A stretch of 64,000 nt of DNA. Source: an uncultured Aquimarina sp. (lineage in GTDB: Bacteria > Bacteroidota > Bacteroidia > Flavobacteriales > Flavobacteriaceae). The stretch's first letter is position 1. Every line of letters starts with the position of its first letter. The notes under the pieces are model-generated. The model searched no databases and was not told the origin of the DNA. It saw only the letters and a program-made list of their open reading frames with translations. The stretch spans positions 1 to 64,000 of the forward strand of contig CANMLG010000028.1 of the NCBI GenBank assembly GCA_947498765.1, written 5' to 3'. Shown here piece after piece: positions 1-7,459 of the stretch. Made by a program: the position numbers and the translations under genes.

Positions 1-26
1 CCAGCCACATCACCGCTTTATTTATT

Positions 27-47
27 CAAATGTCTACTAGACATTTG
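27..47. repeat. 21-bp perfect palindrome (10-bp arms)
   Basis: CAAATGTCTA and TAGACATTTG flank a single C. It lies in noncoding sequence left of the cassette-like region. No T-run follows, so a simple terminator is not obvious; it could be a protein-binding site or a remnant of a mobile element end. Confidence 0.5.
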
Positions 48-174
48 GTTTTATTTCATAAAACCTCATAAAAAAGTGTTCCTCAGAACCGACCACGCAG
101 TCTGGCTTACTTCCTCGTATCAGGGACTCACAGCCTTTGGGACATTCTTTAAATGAACTATATTTACCACTCAA
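48..174. other. noncoding stretch of unknown origin
   Basis: No open frame of note. On the minus strand it contains a short hairpin (AGCC..GAC..GTC..GGTT) followed by GGTTCTGAGG. This faintly resembles a shrunken group II intron domain V, like the better remnants at 2.2 and 3.05 kb, but the match is too weak to call. Confidence 0.25.
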
Positions 175-178
175 AGTA

Positions 179-380
179 CACACAATGGCTATAATTAATA
201 AGGGTTTTTAGTGTTCAATCCAAAGTTTGGTGTATTTTTATAATGTCCGCCAAATCTTTTTGATTTGGCTTTTTAAAAGAGAAAAATTAAAAACAAAATA
301 TAAAAATTCGGCTCTGTGTTAACCCGAAAAGTTTGTGTCTTTTTATACGCTACGTTTCATACACAAGTCCGTTGTGTGTC
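179..380. repeat. cassette-boundary element, copy 1
   Basis: A noncoding element of about 200 bp in front of the LOG gene. Its ends are imperfect inverted repeats (ACACACAATGG on the left, CCGTTGTGTGT on the right). The core (about 245-372) recurs at 1024-1149 with roughly 85% identity by eye. It holds a hairpin GCCAAATC-ttttt-GATTTGGC at 249-269, then the conserved stretches GAAAAATTAAAAACAAAATATAAAAATT and TACGCTACGTTT. The right end abuts the first possible ATG of the downstream gene. It does not show classical integron attC core sites (RYYYAAC/GTTRRRY), so its class is unknown. Confidence 0.6.
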
Positions 381-401
381 ATGAAAAATAATAATCAAAA
401 A

Positions 402-947
402 ATGAAGAAAATAGCAGTTTACTGTGGCTCTAACTTTGGAACCGACAAAGCATTTAAAACACAGGCTTATCTACTTGGAAAAACATTAGCAAAAGAAAAA
501 ATAGAACTTATATACGGAGGAGCTGAAATTGGTCTTATGGGGGTACTGGCAAATGGTGCTTTAGATGAAAATGGTAGAGTAATTGGAATTTTACCGAAAT
601 TTTTAAAATCACAGGAAAGTGCCCACGAAATGTTGTCTGAATTAATTTTAGTTGATACCATGCATGAAAGAAAACACATGATGAATGAATTATGTGATGG
701 AATAATTGCTCTTCCAGGTGGTATGGGAACATTGGAAGAACTTATTGAAATGTTAACTTGGAGACAAATAGGACTTCATCAAAAACCAATAGGAATTCTA
801 AATATTAATGATTTTTATAAATCACTAATTTCTCTATTTCAAACTATGGTGGATAACGATTTAATGAAGAAAGAAAACTTAGATAAGATTATTATAAGTC
901 ATGATATTGACGAATTATTAGATTTAATGAAGAATTATAGCGAATAA
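402..947 (+). CDS. LOG family protein (putative nucleotide 5'-monophosphate phosphoribohydrolase)
   Basis: A 181-residue Rossmann-fold protein of the LOG family (the 'lysine decarboxylase-like' TIGR00730 group). Family members hydrolyse (cytokinin) nucleoside monophosphates to free base and ribose 5-phosphate. The hallmark LPGGMGTLEELIEMLTW, a PGGxGTxxE motif, is near residue 110, and YGGAEIGLMG is in the N-terminal third. The ORF track begins at 333, but MKKIAVYCGS at 402 (or MKNNNQK at 381) is the natural start because the extra 5' codons fall inside the repeated boundary element. The gene is bracketed by inverted repeats CCGTTGTGTGT and ACACACAACACGG, which suggests cargo of a mobile or cassette-like unit. 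The substrate cannot be told from sequence. Confidence 0.8.
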   Translation: MKKIAVYCGSNFGTDKAFKTQAYLLGKTLAKEKIELIYGGAEIGLMGVLANGALDENGRVIGILPKFLKSQESAHEMLSELILVDTMHERKHMMNELCDGIIALPGGMGTLEELIEMLTWRQIGLHQKPIGILNINDFYKSLISLFQTMVDNDLMKKENLDKIIISHDIDELLDLMKNYSE

Positions 948-951
948 AAAC

Positions 952-1160
952 GAACACACAACACGGTGCCCTATAAAACATAGCTAATAAGTACTTAACT
1001 GAAAGGTTTTCTATATTTAGAAAGTCCGCCAAATTTTTAATTTGACTTTTAAAATAGAAAAATTAAAAACAAAATATAAAAATTTGGCTCAGTGTTAATC
1101 CGAAAAATTAGTGTCTTTTTGCACGCTACGTTTTATACACAAGTACGTTCTACAATATTA
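952..1160. repeat. cassette-boundary element, copy 2
   Basis: Second copy of the element at 179-380. The left end (ACACACAACACGG) mirrors the right end of copy 1 across the LOG gene. The core hairpin is kept with a compensatory change (CAAATT/AATTTG instead of AAATC/GATTT). The right end, ACGTTCTACAAT, differs from copy 1 and instead resembles the reverse complement of ACATTGTACAG found after the next two genes. Ends therefore appear cargo-specific while the core is shared. Confidence 0.55.
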
Positions 1161-1185
1161 CATATTTTTAAATACCGATTAAAAA

Positions 1186-1659
1186 ATGAAAGGAAACACA
1201 TACGCTCCTAAAGAAACTATTGTAGGTCCTTCTAAACTAAAACCTTGGATTGAGAACTTTATTTGGATGGGACTTATGATTTTTTTCATTTTTAAATTGT
1301 TTACAGTTCAATCTGAAATAAGATACCTTTCAGTTATTTTAATTTTTGTAATGATCTATGGTATTTATAGCAACATCAAAAAGACTAATAAATCTCCAAA
1401 AATCTTATTAAAACTATCAGAAAAGGGAATAACTCCTCAAAATAGTCGCTTGATTAAATGGTCTAACATAGAAAAAGCAGAGATAATTGTGAAACCAAAT
1501 TATTCTAATTCAGTAATTCAAAAGGAGTACTTAATTATTAGCTCTAAACAAGGTAAAAGAGAAGTATTTATAAATGATTTAGACATAACAGCATTGAGAC
1601 TGGAGTATTTGATTAAAATTTACCGCAATAGATTTAACAAAAAATCGGAAAAACAATAA
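1186..1659 (+). CDS. hypothetical membrane protein
   Basis: 157 residues, not assigned to a named family. Two hydrophobic segments near the N-terminus (about residues 25-43 and 46-63) look like a membrane hairpin. They are followed by a soluble basic domain with alternating beta-like segments (KGITPQNSRLIKWSNIEKAEI, EYLIISSKQGKREVFINDLD), an arrangement reminiscent of small bacterial PH-domain membrane proteins. It lies one nucleotide upstream of the next gene, so the two are probably cotranscribed cargo of the cassette-like unit bounded by the repeats at 952-1160 and about 2153. No function is inferred. Confidence 0.6.
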   Translation: MKGNTYAPKETIVGPSKLKPWIENFIWMGLMIFFIFKLFTVQSEIRYLSVILIFVMIYGIYSNIKKTNKSPKILLKLSEKGITPQNSRLIKWSNIEKAEIIVKPNYSNSVIQKEYLIISSKQGKREVFINDLDITALRLEYLIKIYRNRFNKKSEKQ

Positions 1660-1660
1660 C

Positions 1661-2152
1661 ATGATAGACTTAAAGGAAAAGTTTAGAAGTACTACATTTA
1701 GATATGGAGTATTATTCATATTAACTGGTTTTTTAATACTTCTATACTCCAAAATGATTTTTTTAAATGTCCCAAATGTCAATCTGGGAAAAAGATTTAG
1801 TACAGGTGAATTTTATGAATCCGACTTTTTCAACCTGATAGCTATGCTACAAATAATAGTAGGAATTATATATCTCGTTATTGAATTCAAAGCTATCTTT
1901 TACTTAATCGACAGAAAAACTATCCTTAATTATTGGTTTGTAAATTCTTTTATTTTAGTAATTCTTTCAGTTCCAATTCTTAACAAATATTACCCTACTG
2001 ACGGATATGGAGGAACCAAAATTAGCCAATTAATAATGGTTTATATATTTGTTTCTCTAATTCTGTTTTTTGTAGGTATCTATCATTATTTAACAAATGT
2101 TATAAAATCTGTGTACTCCTACTTTGTCATTAAAAAAGGATGGAAAAACTAA
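1661..2152 (+). CDS. hypothetical four-pass membrane protein
   Basis: 163 residues with four hydrophobic segments at about residues 15-35, 56-76, 88-107 and 124-144, joined by short charged loops. No catalytic motif is recognised. The ATG lies one nucleotide after the upstream stop codon, so translation of the pair is probably coupled. It ends immediately before ACATTGTACAG and the first group II intron remnant, which marks the right edge of this cargo unit. It may act with the upstream two-pass protein; this is inference from adjacency only. Confidence 0.6.
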   Translation: MIDLKEKFRSTTFRYGVLFILTGFLILLYSKMIFLNVPNVNLGKRFSTGEFYESDFFNLIAMLQIIVGIIYLVIEFKAIFYLIDRKTILNYWFVNSFILVILSVPILNKYYPTDGYGGTKISQLIMVYIFVSLILFFVGIYHYLTNVIKSVYSYFVIKKGWKN

Positions 2153-2160
2153 CATTGTAC

Positions 2161-2232
2161 AGTCGAGTAGGTAAAAATTAATTTCTCCCCTAAACCTCTT
2201 ACAGAACCATACGTGATAGCTTGCCGTAAGTG
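2161..2232 (-). mobile_element. group II intron 3'-end remnant, copy 1
   Basis: On the minus strand this reads as the 3' half of domain V (TATCACGTATGGTTC), then a domain VI-like stem (AGGGGAGAAATTAATTTTTACCTACTCGAC) ending at a CTACTCGAC-type intron terminus. The 5' half of domain V, including the AGC triad, is replaced, so it cannot be active. A better-preserved copy is at 3013-3140 and the toxin-antitoxin pair lies between them. No reverse transcriptase gene is present. Confidence 0.5.
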
Positions 2233-2267: not shown

Positions 2268-2435
2268 ATGATTACTAAAAAAATGCAATCTCAACCGCCT
2301 AAAAAATACGTATTCCTAAACCAAAAAAGAAAACTCGGAATGATAAAAAAAATTAAAAAAAAAATTGATAAATTTGATTTAAAACCTGAAGATTTCGGAT
2401 TTAATAAAAAACTGATAATCAACAAACAAAATTGA
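2268..2435 (+). CDS. small basic protein, hypothetical
   Basis: A 55-codon frame (or 50 codons from ATG 2283), below the ORF-track cutoff. It has a Lys-rich stretch MIKKIKKKIDKFDLKPEDFGF. The 'I..I...I..F.L.PEDLGF' pattern loosely resembles the N-terminal helix region of H-NS-like proteins in Bacteroidota, but the DNA-binding signature (TWSGRGR..W) is absent. It may therefore be a truncated relic. It sits between the intron remnant and the antitoxin promoter. Low certainty that it is expressed. Confidence 0.3.
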   Translation: MITKKMQSQPPKKYVFLNQKRKLGMIKKIKKKIDKFDLKPEDFGFNKKLIINKQN

Positions 2436-2447
2436 CGTTAATCAGAA

Positions 2448-2479
2448 TTTGCGCAACTAACGAAAATAAATTAATTTTG
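2448..2479 (+). promoter_or_regulatory. Bacteroidota-type promoter of the toxin-antitoxin pair
   Basis: TTTG at 2448-2451 and TAATTTTG at 2472-2479 with 20 nt between them fit the -33/-7 consensus. The -7 box ends four nucleotides before the antitoxin ATG, so transcription would start at or near the start codon and the mRNA may be leaderless. Confidence 0.5.
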
Positions 2480-2483
2480 GTTT

Positions 2484-2717
2484 ATGGAAATTAATATTCA
2501 AAGTGCTAAAATAGAGCTTATCCAATGGTTAACGACTTTAGAAGATAGTTCCGTGATTCAAAAAATAATGGACTTGAGAAAAAATGAAACCAAGGATTCG
2601 TGGAATGAAATATCAGAAGCTGAAAAAAAATCTATTGAACTGGGTTTAATGGATGCTGAAAAAGGAAAACTAAACCCAAATTCAGAAGCTGAAAAGATTT
2701 ATGGAAGGTGGTTATAG
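2484..2717 (+). CDS. antitoxin of a ParE/RelE-type toxin-antitoxin module
   Basis: 77 residues, acidic and helical. The first half would be the DNA-binding/dimer part, and the tail SEAEKKSIELGLMDAEKGKLNPNSEAEKIYGRWL resembles the toxin-wrapping C-terminus common in antitoxins paired with ParE-like toxins in Bacteroidota. The reading frame overlaps the toxin gene by 17 nt, the usual arrangement for coupled synthesis. The pair is flanked by two group II intron remnants, consistent with mobile cargo. The fold class (Phd/YefM or other) is not certain. Autoregulation is expected for the family but no operator was identified. Confidence 0.7.
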   Translation: MEINIQSAKIELIQWLTTLEDSSVIQKIMDLRKNETKDSWNEISEAEKKSIELGLMDAEKGKLNPNSEAEKIYGRWL

Positions 2718-3000
2718 AATTCTTTGGACTGACCACGCTCTGAAGGAATTGGCTGAAACCTATAATTATCTTGAAACACATTTTACAGAACGTGAAATGA
2801 GAAAGTTATCAACTGAAATTGACAAAACGCTTAAATTAATTTCTATAAACCCAAGCTTATTTCCAAAATCAGAATTAAAAGAAATTAGAAGAATTGTAAT
2901 TAAAAAGTTCAACACAATGTATTATCGAGAAAAGGAAAATACTATTGAAATACTATCTTTTTTCTCAAACAGACAAAATCCTGATAAAGGAAAAATATAA
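2701..3000 (+). CDS. RelE/ParE-family toxin
   Basis: 99 residues with the ParE/RelE layout. The N-terminal strand YRILWTDHALKELAE leads into two helices, followed by ELKEIRRIVIKKFNTMYYREKENTIEILSFFSNRQNPDKGKI. The basic strand with Arg residues and the closing 'I.IL.FF..RQNP' motif are typical of ParE-type toxins from Bacteroidota. The family includes gyrase inhibitors (ParE) and ribosome-dependent mRNases (RelE); the sequence alone does not decide which. A second module of the same general type is at 49.06-49.64 kb. Confidence 0.8.
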   Translation: MEGGYRILWTDHALKELAETYNYLETHFTEREMRKLSTEIDKTLKLISINPSLFPKSELKEIRRIVIKKFNTMYYREKENTIEILSFFSNRQNPDKGKI

Positions 3001-3012
3001 AAAACTATGCAC

Positions 3013-3140
3013 AGTCGAATAGGTAAAAGGGAATTTTACCCCTAAACCTCTCACAGAATCCTACCTGATAGTTTCCCATCATACGGCTCTTATTAGGCAG
3101 CCAATTCAACTAAGTTAAATGATAACCTAGTGACCAATGG
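3013..3140 (-). mobile_element. group II intron 3'-end remnant, copy 2 (domains V and VI)
   Basis: On the minus strand, 3089-3056 is a 34-nt domain V: GAGCCGTAT, upper stem GATGG-GAAA-CTATC with a GNRA tetraloop, a two-nucleotide bulge, then GTAGGATTC. The AGC triad is present, but the lower stem has a C.A and a G.G mismatch, so it is decayed. Domain VI follows (TAGGGGTAAAATTCCCTTTTACCTATTCGAC) and ends the intron. The sequence just 5' (TTGGCTGCCTAATAA) also looks like intron, and no RT ORF remains. Confidence 0.6.
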
Positions 3141-3168: not shown

Positions 3169-3681
3169 CTATTTCTGCTGATCATATTCCACAAAAGCCA
3201 CAGATGATTTTTTCACATAAGCTGGAGACTCCTCAAACAATTGTTTCAACTTATTATCCCAATCATTAGCTATACTAAAATAATCCGAATTTACCACTGA
3301 CATTATATGGCCACAATCATCACAAACATGAGTTGAATACTCTAAAAAATAATGTGCAAATTCATGAAAAGCAACTACTTTTAAAATTTCTTTATCCAAT
3401 TGAGCTACCCAATTAATATCAATTGATACCACTTTTCCTTCTTCATTTCTACGAAGCATTCCTAAAGTAGAAGCCTGTTCAGATACTGTTAATGTGTTTA
3501 CTATATCAATTGACTTTAGTTTGAATAGTTTATCATAGTATGTTATATCGTATTTTTTACACATTGTAAAAAAATCATTCAATAAAGGTTGTAATCTACC
3601 ATCTATACTCACATCTTGTGCATTGATTGATGTAATTTTAACAAAAGCCAACACCAGTACTATCAAAATTTTCTTCAGCAT
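3169..3681 (-). CDS. secreted putative metallopeptidase (HEFAH motif)
   Basis: 170 residues with a clear signal peptide (MLKKILIVLVLAFVKITSINA). It carries VAFHEFAHYFLEYSTHVCDDCGH, an HExxH zincin motif with further His and a CxxC pair downstream that could bind metal or form a disulfide. The short length and lack of a recognisable propeptide make it unlike the large M12/M43 peptidases. A minimal zinc peptidase, or an inactive relative, is possible. It is transcribed opposite to the cassette region and followed by the intron remnant. Family assignment is uncertain; secretion and the motif are directly visible. Confidence 0.6.
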   Translation of the reverse strand: MLKKILIVLVLAFVKITSINAQDVSIDGRLQPLLNDFFTMCKKYDITYYDKLFKLKSIDIVNTLTVSEQASTLGMLRRNEEGKVVSIDINWVAQLDKEILKVVAFHEFAHYFLEYSTHVCDDCGHIMSVVNSDYFSIANDWDNKLKQLFEESPAYVKKSSVAFVEYDQQK

Positions 3682-4036: not shown

Positions 4037-6511
4037 CTATTTATTTGTTGCTTTTGGTAACGCTAATTTTTTAGCATTCTTTACTTTTTGATCTGTTACA
4101 GCAATTTCTAAGACTTGACTCATTTCGGAAACATAATGAAATGTTAATCCTTTTAAATAATCTTCTTTAATTTCAAGAATATCTCTTCGATTATCCTCAC
4201 ATAGGATTAATTCTTTGATTTTTGCACGTTTGGCAGCTAAAATCTTTTCCTTAATTCCTCCAACTGGCAATACCTTACCTCTAAGTGTAATTTCTCCAGT
4301 CATAGCAATACTTTTCTTAACTTTTTTCTGTGTAAGCAAAGAAACTAAGGAAGTTAACATAGTTATACCTGCACTTGGACCATCCTTAGGTGTGGCTCCT
4401 TCAGGTACATGGATATGAATATTATAACTAGAAATTATCTCAGGATCTATACCCAGTGATTCTGCATTAGCCTTAATATATTCTAAGGCAATGGTAGCCG
4501 ACTCCTTCATTACCTTTCCTAAATTCCCTGTAATATTCAACAAGCCTTTTCCTTTTGAAAGAATAGATTCTATAAATAAAATATCACCTCCTACTCTAGT
4601 CCAAGCCAATCCAGTTACCACACCTGCTACATCATTATTTTCATATTTGTCTCGCTCTAGTCTTGGCGGCCCTAATATTTCAATAACATCTTTAGCAGAA
4701 ATTTTAGCATCGTGTTCTAGCTCCATAGCAATATTTTTTGCTGTGTTTCTTACCACCTTAGCTATTTGTTTTTCCAAACCTCTAACTCCAGACTCACGAG
4801 TATAACCTTCTACTATTTTTTCCAAAACAGGTTTAGGCACTTTTAAATGTTCGTTTGAAAGTCCATGCTCTTTTAATTGCTTTGGTAGTAAATGCTTTTT
4901 ACCTATTTCAACTTTTTCTTCAATAGTATAACCAGATACATTGATAACTTCCATACGGTCACGTAATGCAGGTTGAATGCTCCCCATATTATTAGAAGTA
5001 GCAATAAACATTACTTTTGATAAATCGAATCCTAATTCAAGAAAATTATCATAAAACTCACTATTCTGCTCTGGGTCTAACACTTCTAACAAAGCTGAAG
5101 AAGGGTCTCCTTGATTACCTGCCGCTAATTTATCTATTTCATCTAATACAAATACAGGGTTACTTGTACCTGCTTTTTTCAAACTCTGAATAATGCGTCC
5201 TGGCATAGCTCCTATATAAGTTTTTCTATGCCCTCTAATTTCTGCTTCATCACGTAAACCTCCCAATGAAACACGCACATATTCCCTTCCTAAAGCTTCG
5301 GCTATTGATTTTCCTAATGATGTTTTTCCGACTCCTGGAGGTCCAAATAAACATAAAATAGGCGATTTCATATCATTACGTAACTTTAAAACAGCTAAAT
5401 ATTCAATAATACGCTCTTTTACATCTTCTAAACCATAATGATGTTTATCTAGTATTTTTTGGGCACGCTTTAGATCAAAATTATCGGTGCTGTACTCATT
5501 CCACGGTAATTCTAAAAATAATTCTAGATAATTACGTTGAATTCCATATTCTGCAACCTGAGGATTCATCCGTTGCATTTTACCTAATTCCTTTTCGAAA
5601 TGTTCCTTTACCTCTTTACTCCATTTTTTCTTTTTCCCTTTTTGACGCATTTGATCCAGTTCGTCATCATGAGAAACACCACCTAATTCTTCTTGTATTG
5701 TTTTTATTTGCTGATGTAAGAAGTATTCGCGCTGTTGCTTATTCATATCATGCTGCACCTTACTTTGAATATCATTTTTAAGCTCCAGCTTTTGATATTC
5801 TAAGTTCATAAATTTTAAGGTTGCTAAAGCACGATCTTGCAAACTATTTATTTCTAATAACTCTTGTTTTTCAACAAGAGATAAATTCATATTTGAAGAT
5901 ACAAAGTTGATTAAAAAAGAATTACTTTCTATATTTTTTATAGCGAACGAAGCCTCGCTAGGAATATTCGGACTCTCTTTTATTATTTTTAATGATAAAT
6001 CCTTTATAGAATCAATAATTGCGCCAAATTCTTTATCATCTTTATCTGGGCGGTGCTCTTCAACCTCGCTTACTTTTGCCATCATAAAAGGCTCATCTGC
6101 AATCATTTCATCAATTGCAAAACGTTTTTTTCCTTGAATAATCACTGTAGTATTTCCATCAGGCATTTTTAATACCTTCAAAATACGAGCTACAACTCCA
6201 ATAGTATTAATATCATTAACAGTAGGTTTTTCAACCGTTTCATCTTTTTGAGAAACAACTCCAATTACTTTATCGCCTTTATTAGCGGCATTAATCAATT
6301 TAATTGATTTATCTCGACCTGCTGTTATTGGAATTACAACTCCAGGAAAAAGCACAGTATTTCGTAATGGTAAAATAGGTAGGGCTTCGGGTAGACTTTC
6401 TTGTCTTATTTCTTCTTCATCTTCTGGAGTCATTAAAGGAATTAATTCTGCATCTTCATTCATATCCTGTAATGACAAATTGTCCAGACTTAATATTTTA
6501 GATTTGGCCAT
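4037..6511 (-). CDS. lon: ATP-dependent protease Lon
   Basis: 824 residues, the normal Lon length. The N-terminal substrate-binding (LAN) domain spans about 45-250 ([19 protein letters not shown]) and is followed by a coiled region. The AAA+ module has Walker [10 protein letters not shown] near residue 390 and Walker [11 protein letters not shown]. The C-terminal protease domain has the Ser-Lys dyad context (DGPSAGITM and a downstream Lys). Lon degrades misfolded and regulatory proteins in the cytoplasm. The gene is monocistronic, with its own terminator downstream and a TGCCA-ttt-TGGCA palindrome just upstream of the ATG. Confidence 0.97.
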
Positions 6512-6735: not shown

Positions 6736-7407
6736 CTATAATTCAACAACCTGTATATTATCAAAGTTACCTCCTGTAATTTCAGAAGATTCACTTCCTG
6801 TCTCTGTAAAAGCTTTAAATGTAAAAGATCCAGAAACAGTATTACCATCGTAAATTAGTTGCAAAAAACCAGTAGCACTGCTTGAAAACCCTGTGCTAAA
6901 TATTGCTCCCGCTTTATTAATATTACCTACAAAATCTTGTGCTGCTCCGACTGCAAATGGTTGGGTCATAGGATTATTAACTGACATAATAATTGAATTT
7001 CCTCCTATATCTATTAAGTTTATTGTTAATAAAGCTCCATCAAGTGTTGCAGAAAACGATCTAACTATAAACTCTTCATCATCTATAAGTCCTATAAAAT
7101 CACCTGCTTCTGCAAATATTTTATCTGGTGACGGTGTTCCTCCTCCGCTAGGATCAATAACTACACCGGTAACTGGATCTATTTCTAAACCTGTTGCTGG
7201 ATCTGTAATTACTCCTGTAGTTGGGTTAATTATCCCACCTGTTATTGGGTCAGTAAGTTCCCCTGTTACAGGATCTTTAATTCCTCGGGATATTATTTTT
7301 AGTTTCTCTATTTGATTTCCATCTAAAAAATCACTAGCAGTGGCATCTTTTTCACAAGAAACCATTAGTAAACTTAATATAGAGATTATAAAAGCTATCT
7401 TTTTCAT
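6736..7407 (-). CDS. lipoprotein with tandem D-P-x-T-G repeats
   Basis: 223 residues from the preferred start MKKIAFIIS (the track adds MLC). A lipobox LLMVSC at the end of the signal sequence predicts lipidation at Cys. Residues about 45-95 form five or six imperfect 8-residue repeats of the type DPVTGELT/DPITGGII/NPTTGVIT/DPATGLEI, a probable stalk or Ca-binding-like linker. The remaining ~130 residues form a beta-rich domain (FIVRSFSATLDGALLTINLIDIGGNSI...) that looks like the small calycin-like (DUF6252-type) lipoproteins of Bacteroidota. Probably outer-membrane anchored; function unknown. Confidence 0.7.
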   Translation of the reverse strand: MKKIAFIISILSLLMVSCEKDATASDFLDGNQIEKLKIISRGIKDPVTGELTDPITGGIINPTTGVITDPATGLEIDPVTGVVIDPSGGGTPSPDKIFAEAGDFIGLIDDEEFIVRSFSATLDGALLTINLIDIGGNSIIMSVNNPMTQPFAVGAAQDFVGNINKAGAIFSTGFSSSATGFLQLIYDGNTVSGSFTFKAFTETGSESSEITGGNFDNIQVVEL

Positions 7408-7459
7408 ACACAACATTAATTACTATTATAATGAAACAAAGTTACAGTTTATTGCATTA

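Follow-up and report, generated by a model that had tools for sequence, protein, structure and literature searches.

Organization of the cassette region

The window is a 64,000-nucleotide stretch of contig CANMLG010000028.1 (positions 1 to 64,000, forward strand) from an uncultured Aquimarina sp. (GCA_947498765.1). Its left end carries a group II intron at the contig start, a hairpin site, a first cassette, a second site and a second cassette, followed by an intron fragment, a toxin-antitoxin unit and another intron fragment. Beyond these lies ordinary chromosome, encoding a small secreted protein (3169-3681) and a Lon protease (4037-6511). No recombinase is visible in this array because the contig ends inside the intron at position 1.

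The first intron (1..181, minus strand) is a 5' part truncated by the contig start and sits in an attC-like site; the same sequence stands at the head of the intron copies at loci L017 and L020. Its bottom-strand 5' exon, GCCATTGT, fits the group IIC-attC target TTGT/T, the boundary being placed by reading of the sequence. The interrupted site (site 0, 182..370, no strand assigned) has lost its R'' arm to the intron. Its left arm is of the GGCTAT type (GGCTATAATTAATAAGG) and its right arm of the GTGTAT type (GCTACGTTTCATACAC), and the stem pairs poorly because the arms come from different site families. Site 0 is likely a natural hybrid made by exchange within similar centres.

Cassette 1 (GTTGTGTGT...ACACACAAC, 371..962, plus strand) was recognized by its end repeats, detected automatically by the cassette-chain script described below, and encodes a LOG-type protein (381..947, plus strand; TIGR00730, lysine_decarbox fold). 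The attC-like site between cassettes 1 and 2 (site 1, 963..1146, no strand assigned) folds from the bottom strand, with 3 nt inserted into its L arm (GTGCCCTAT), and has near copies on contigs C71 (91%) and C54 (89%) of genome G000. Cassette 2 (GTTCTACAATATT...AACATTGTACA, 1147..2161, plus strand) encodes two small membrane proteins (1186..1659 and 1661..2152, both plus strand), neither with a family match. Its R'' is cut by a group II intron 3' fragment (2162..2226, minus strand) which repeats 3003-3077 and is missing from an intact copy of cassette 2 in another species, G036. Unit 3 (2371..3013, plus strand) is probably a cassette whose 5' end has been lost; it encodes an antitoxin-like small protein (2484..2717, plus strand, no family match) and a ParE-type toxin (2701..3000, plus strand; PF05016, E 6e-8). 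Its R'', AACTATGCACA, is cut at 3013/3014 by a group II intron 3' domain fragment (3014..3091, minus strand; Rfam RF00029, 46.5 bits), and the RF00029 match starts at 3014, the exact predicted exon end. In the window the LOG gene and the toxin-antitoxin pair are separate units, unlike at a locus in another family (L205, G087:C3:587156-588191), where a LOG gene adjoins a relative of the pair.

Group IIC-attC introns insert antisense into the R'' of attC sites at TTGT/T (PMC7923331). The fragments described here are likewise antisense in R'', with three 5' exons ending in TTGT (window 182, L017 near 2000 and L020 near 9330) and three 3' exons starting with T (window 2161 and 3013, and L020 near 8325). 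They obey the IIC-attC insertion rule, although the class is inferred from insertion position without a reverse transcriptase phylogeny, and they are passengers of the array rather than its engine. An intact group II intron reverse transcriptase is present in the same genome's cassette region (L017 63-1337), and this intron is a possible source of the fragments.

Each unit carries its own pair of matched arms

The initial annotation proposed that inverted repeats specific to each cargo bracket the LOG gene and the membrane-protein pair, matching across the cargo and not across the junction, and that the element core is shared. All of this held. The four quoted repeats are present in the window, with GTTGTGTGT (371-379) pairing with ACACACAAC (954-962) around the LOG gene, and GTTCTACAATATT (1147-1159) with AACATTGTAC(A) (2151-2161) around the membrane-protein pair; only the unit ends required slight correction, to 371-962 and 1147-2161. 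For both units the match is across the unit's own cargo, and the cores (258-373 and 1034-1149) match at 87%. The 3' repeat of the membrane-protein pair is truncated in the window by the intron fragment from 2162, and the intact cassette in G036 reads GTTGTACAATATT...AACATTGTACAAC.

The units have the general form GTT-N7-A-NTT ... AAN-C-N7'-AAC, followed by a hairpin site of 54-190 bp. Since a single 11-13 nt repeat pair could have arisen by chance, the rule was tested on sites located by their internal stem only, without use of the cargo match. In 123 neighbouring site pairs, positions 4-9 of the arms pair within a cassette in 87, 85, 79, 76, 76 and 80% of cases, compared with 46, 43, 36, 31, 32 and 37% across the junction, which approximates random re-pairing. 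At least six of the first seven positions match in 84 of the 123 cassettes (2.3% for random pairs), and 97/123 units carry A in the 5' arm and C in the 3' arm at R-arm position 11. The arm-match figures are lower bounds, as missed sites produce false neighbours, so true matching is at least this frequent; the search underlying the arm-pairing and folding counts does demand some stem complementarity.

A cassette-chain script, which links units matching GTT-w ... rc(w)-AAC, finds as many as 11 consecutive units immediately behind a recombinase gene, with scores far above those of shuffled sequence. A unit reads identically on both strands and the chain score is therefore blind to strand, so that array orientation was taken from stem asymmetry together with the genes. 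By stem asymmetry, 80 sites lie on the array strand and 13 on the opposite strand.

The hairpin sites fold preferentially from the bottom strand

The 161 sites compared share attC-type features: they are imperfect palindromes with R and L arms and bottom-strand folding. A is opposed to C at stem positions 7 and 12 in 112/161 and 118/161 sites, respectively, and the bottom strand folds better because every such top-strand opposition becomes a G.T wobble on the bottom strand. When sites are composed in the form predicted for a circle, the bottom strand is the better folder in 124/129, by a mean of 4.1 kcal/mol (48/124 for control windows). The circle form folds better than the array form at 127/129 sites, and joining a cassette's own ends gives a bottom-strand fold stronger by 7.1 kcal/mol on average than the arm pair found in the array. 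In a set of 25 diverse sites 98% of stem cells are paired, and 11 of the 16 stem pairs are altered on both sides, as compensatory changes; the second fixed G.U pair in this set was forced by site selection, whereas the 161- and 123-site counts are unselected. The integron R box consensus (RYYYAAC / GTTRRRY) is not met, as just 17/163 R' boxes fit GTTRRRY, with GTT/AAC itself fixed by the search. The R and L arms are separated by spacers of unequal length (mostly 3 versus 5 or 6 nt), and it is possible that these set bases outside the helix, although there is no structure.

Recombinase genes head the arrays

Used as a query against the window's own genome, the shared element returned 16 matches; most of the strongest lie at the ends of contigs or on small ones. 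On one of these contigs (C56) cassettes lie behind a tyrosine recombinase gene, and every one of them has its own pair of ends: GTTACCCAAT/ATTGGGTAAC, GTTAGCAAC/GTTGCTAAC, GTTAGCGCA/TGCGCTAAC, GTTGTGAACT/AGTTCACAAC and GTTATCTAC/GTAGATAAC. The array survey was built on 40 recombinase loci. The recombinase gene is co-directional with the array. In many genomes a dyad ending in (C)ATT|GTT lies about 45-55 bp past the recombinase stop codon and before the first GTT, and breaks between related arrays fall at this GTT. We infer from sequence alone that it is an attI-type site; its activity has not been demonstrated. The dyads vary in sequence between genomes (L019, L058, L063, L067 and L097 among many) with the palindrome kept, so that pairing, rather than sequence, may be what is conserved.

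The recombinase is a 380-residue tyrosine recombinase (Pfam PF00589 plus SAM-like N-terminal domains) that scores above cut-off for NCBIfam NF040815. Against the integron integrase model TIGR02249 it scores 204 bits, below the cut-off of 265, with the match split in two, and its alignment to the solved IntI 2A3V skips IntI residues 186-244. This interval includes K209, Y210, W219, P232, H240 and H241, which contact extrahelical bases in IntI (PMC3053210). With no counterpart of 186-244, the recombinase lacks patch III, the additional IntI-specific domain by which integron integrases are defined (PMC9668308). The KDR-LRHS segment is 60-61 residues in 22 of 23 array-associated recombinases, the remaining one being unmeasured. 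In a phylogenetic tree the IntIs form a separate clade (100/100) apart from all array-associated recombinases, although deeper branching is weakly supported. No canonical IntI above the TIGR02249 cut-off was found in the 143 relatives searched; the same search phylum-wide, as a positive control, gave 93/346 above cut-off (one in the same class), showing that it works. The best solved structures for the catalytic domain are XerA (5hxy) and a dimeric archaeal Xer (4a8e), and the scores for XerC (191, cut-off 335) and XerD (196, cut-off 330) are low.

Ahead of the catalytic part lies an additional conserved N-terminal domain, some 80 residues long, with a predicted b-b-a-b-b-a-b fold (residues 11-77, L019:4702-5844); it could possibly substitute for the IntI domain in reading the hairpin. 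Among viral contigs only relatives of the catalytic part were found, and none of the 80 retained matches covers the N-terminal domain. The domain is also faintly similar to the SMARCAL1 HARP domain, which binds strand junctions, but the match (4o66, E 0.65) is too weak for a resemblance to be claimed.

Units are exchanged between arrays and species

Cassette 2 of the window is present in G036 (contig C4), in an array with a recombinase gene on the same contig, and is 94% identical over 1,017 bp with the homology confined to 1145-2161. The homology begins at ACGTT and ends at TGTACA, where the window continues into the intron and G036 into an intact R''. Genomes G014 and G027 are 89.5% identical through the recombinase gene, attI, a 4-kb first cassette and its site, and are unrelated from the GTT that follows; for G034 and G014, 91% identity reaches as far as the attI GTT, beyond which the two differ. 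Within the Aquimarina genome itself, two copies with 97% identical recombinases and a common attI stretch have 95.9% identity that ends at the attI GTT, and their first cassettes differ. The L090 array has three copies of a 440-bp cassette, each flanked by different neighbours. At the same chromosomal locus as the window in G007 (contig C4), where a flanking gene is 87% identical, the toxin-antitoxin unit (2371-2998) is 95% identical with different neighbours, and neither the LOG cassette nor the membrane cassette is matched in G007. Units with precise ends are therefore exchanged between arrays and species, and co-directional cassette arrays with precise mobile boundaries, as integrons are required to have, are present.

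The initial annotation stated that its proposal of mobile cassettes, integron-like but with another site type, would be refuted by vertical stability of the region or by repeats that are not cargo-matched in other copies. Neither was the case: another species also carries cassette 2, the homology extending no further than the unit; GTT junctions are the exact points at which arrays diverge; and the repeats are cargo-matched elsewhere. Other arrays with new cargo, which it had suggested seeking, were found, headed by recombinase genes and with an attI-like site. Mobility is thus supported; the circle itself, and rebuilding of the site at each junction after movement as a circle, are inferred and not demonstrated.

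Distribution and cargo

Relatives of the recombinase are present in 77 of 143 related genomes and in named genera of several Bacteroidota orders, and its arrangement with an array in dozens of flavobacterial genomes and in other Bacteroidota. Public array loci include those of Winogradskyella ursingii, Arcticiflavibacter luteus, Seonamhaeicola aphaedonensis, Arundinibacter roseus and Algibacter onchidii, and of uncultured Lutibacter and Carboxylicivirga. A covariance model of one site class has matches in 94/143 relatives, comprising 72/77 recombinase-positive and 22/66 recombinase-negative genomes; outside the family the corresponding numbers are 8/10 and 9/49. The difference is not significant when only the genus is considered, and the co-occurrence derives in part from kinship. 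The sites in 22 recombinase-negative genomes indicate that sites can persist without the recombinase. Several genomes (G002, G004, G011, G012, G024, G059 and others) have many hairpin sites and no recombinase match at E 1e-40, a counterpart of attC clusters without an integrase.

The main cassette open reading frames follow the array direction in 176 of 194 cases. The median unit is 704 bp, with the start codon 28 bp past the GTT and the stop 16 bp ahead of the unit end. Among 70 sampled frames, 36 Pfam families were matched, nearly all by one frame each, and include GNAT acetyltransferases, a beta-lactamase fold, superoxide dismutase, an AraC regulator, RNA ligase, SUKH and PLD. The cargo is accessory, as in integrons.

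Discussion

We regard it as very likely that this region of the window belongs to a cassette array on the chromosome, within an integron-like system headed by a recombinase that is not an IntI. In the mechanism we propose, the mobile unit would be a gene plus its downstream hairpin site. In a circle the unit ends would meet, and base pairing of the R'' and R' arms, each cargo-specific and about 14 nt long, would complete the hairpin; the recombinase would recognise this folded structure rather than a sequence and cut within or beside GTT, and the unit would be inserted at attI or another site. Because the arms at an array junction come from different cassettes and are unpaired, capture should be favoured over excision. 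The circles, excision, enzyme activity and this polarity are all inferred, and none has been observed.

Could the region instead be an ordinary integron, with a canonical IntI and unrecognised attC sites? The cassettes, the attI-like and attC-like sites, the bottom-strand folding, the IIC-attC introns in R'' at TTGT/T and the 204-bit match to the integrase model speak for this. We nevertheless consider it very unlikely, since the match is split and below the cut-off of 265, IntI 186-244 is skipped, the KDR-LRHS spacing is 60-61 in 22/23 recombinases, canonical IntI is found in 0/143 relatives against 93/346 phylum-wide with the IntIs in a separate clade, and GTTRRRY fits just 17/163 R' boxes. 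It is similarly very improbable that the elements are mere repeats between genes, either terminators or REP-like hairpins, whose copies homologous recombination has shuffled with no site-specific recombination involved. They are multicopy AT-rich hairpins, and homologous exchange between copies likely does occur, as in the hybrid site at 182-370, but this leaves unexplained the cargo-specific arms, the exact GTT/AAC boundaries, the attI beside the recombinase gene, and breaks at the attI GTT without homology in the sequences that follow.

Movement by group II introns or insertion sequences, or as Xer/dif-type modules, is all but ruled out. Introns and insertion sequence ends do occur in the arrays of this genome, and gene modules of the pdif type are a known system: in Acinetobacter plasmids, genes lie as modules between dif-like 28-bp sites that the host XerCD recombines. 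However, the introns interrupt sites rather than carry units, the sites are not 28-bp dif cores but long, imperfect hairpins whose arms vary, and the recombinase is far under the XerC (191 vs 335) and XerD (196 vs 330) cut-offs. Membership of the pdif class itself, with 28-bp XerC/XerD core sites and host XerCD, was considered and rejected, the sites being hairpins of 54-190 bp; pdif modules share the modular arrangement but lack folded hairpins and cargo-matched arms.

The integron-like system headed by a non-IntI recombinase resembles chromosomal integrons in having arrays of mostly single, co-directional genes with short UTRs, an insertion site beside the recombinase gene, folded and imperfectly paired sites with R and L arms and bottom-strand bias, toxin-antitoxin and GNAT cargo, and group IIC-attC introns in R'' at TTGT/T. 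It differs in that the recombinase has an extra N-terminal domain and no IntI-specific domain, the R arms are about 14 nt, variable yet cassette-matched, and not GTTRRRY, and the sites (54 to about 190 bp) have fixed G.T wobbles in the stem. We place it outside the accepted definition of an integron, since tests for the IntI domain and for the R-box consensus both failed. Archaeal integrons (PMC9668308) are likewise cassette arrays in unexpected lineages, but they retain the IntI-specific domain. XerA/XerH-type tyrosine recombinases act on chromosome-dimer sites; they are similar in catalytic domain (5hxy, 4a8e) and in the NF040815 match, whereas the recombinase described here is encoded at the front of cassette arrays.

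In Bacteroidetes proper, IntegronFinder 2.0 reported a single complete integron, that of Salinibacter ruber (PMC9024848), and its integrase search requires the IntI-specific domain (PMC9024848, PMC9668308). As this domain is missing here, the arrays should be invisible to standard surveys. The suggestion in the initial annotation that the system is undescribed stands to the extent that no prior description was found in the open-access literature searched, and we limit any claim of novelty to that. If the system works as inferred, a major phylum holds a large unrecognised gene-capture system, folded sites may be recognised without the IntI domain, and the R''-R' rule can be tested by simple mutation. 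The arrays also offer a means of finding cassette genes across many existing genomes.

A bolder reading, which we would as readily doubt as accept, is that a second integron-type platform has evolved separately and is widespread in Bacteroidota, with arms private to each cassette and a recombinase that recognises a wobble-marked single-strand hairpin. If it were true, the arm sequence would be free to vary provided that both cassette ends match, and capture would be intrinsically favoured over loss, as the arms of neighbouring cassettes cannot pair.

Three loci (L019 reverse strand 7365-7452, L055 2695-2779, and L085) share an almost identical stretch, CCCCACATCAGAATCCGATTAATTCC..., which starts some 13 nt past GTT, behind R' arms that differ (GTTACCCAAC, GTTGGCAAT and GTTGCCAACC). 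It is possibly an insertion sequence or a leader that targets cassette starts.
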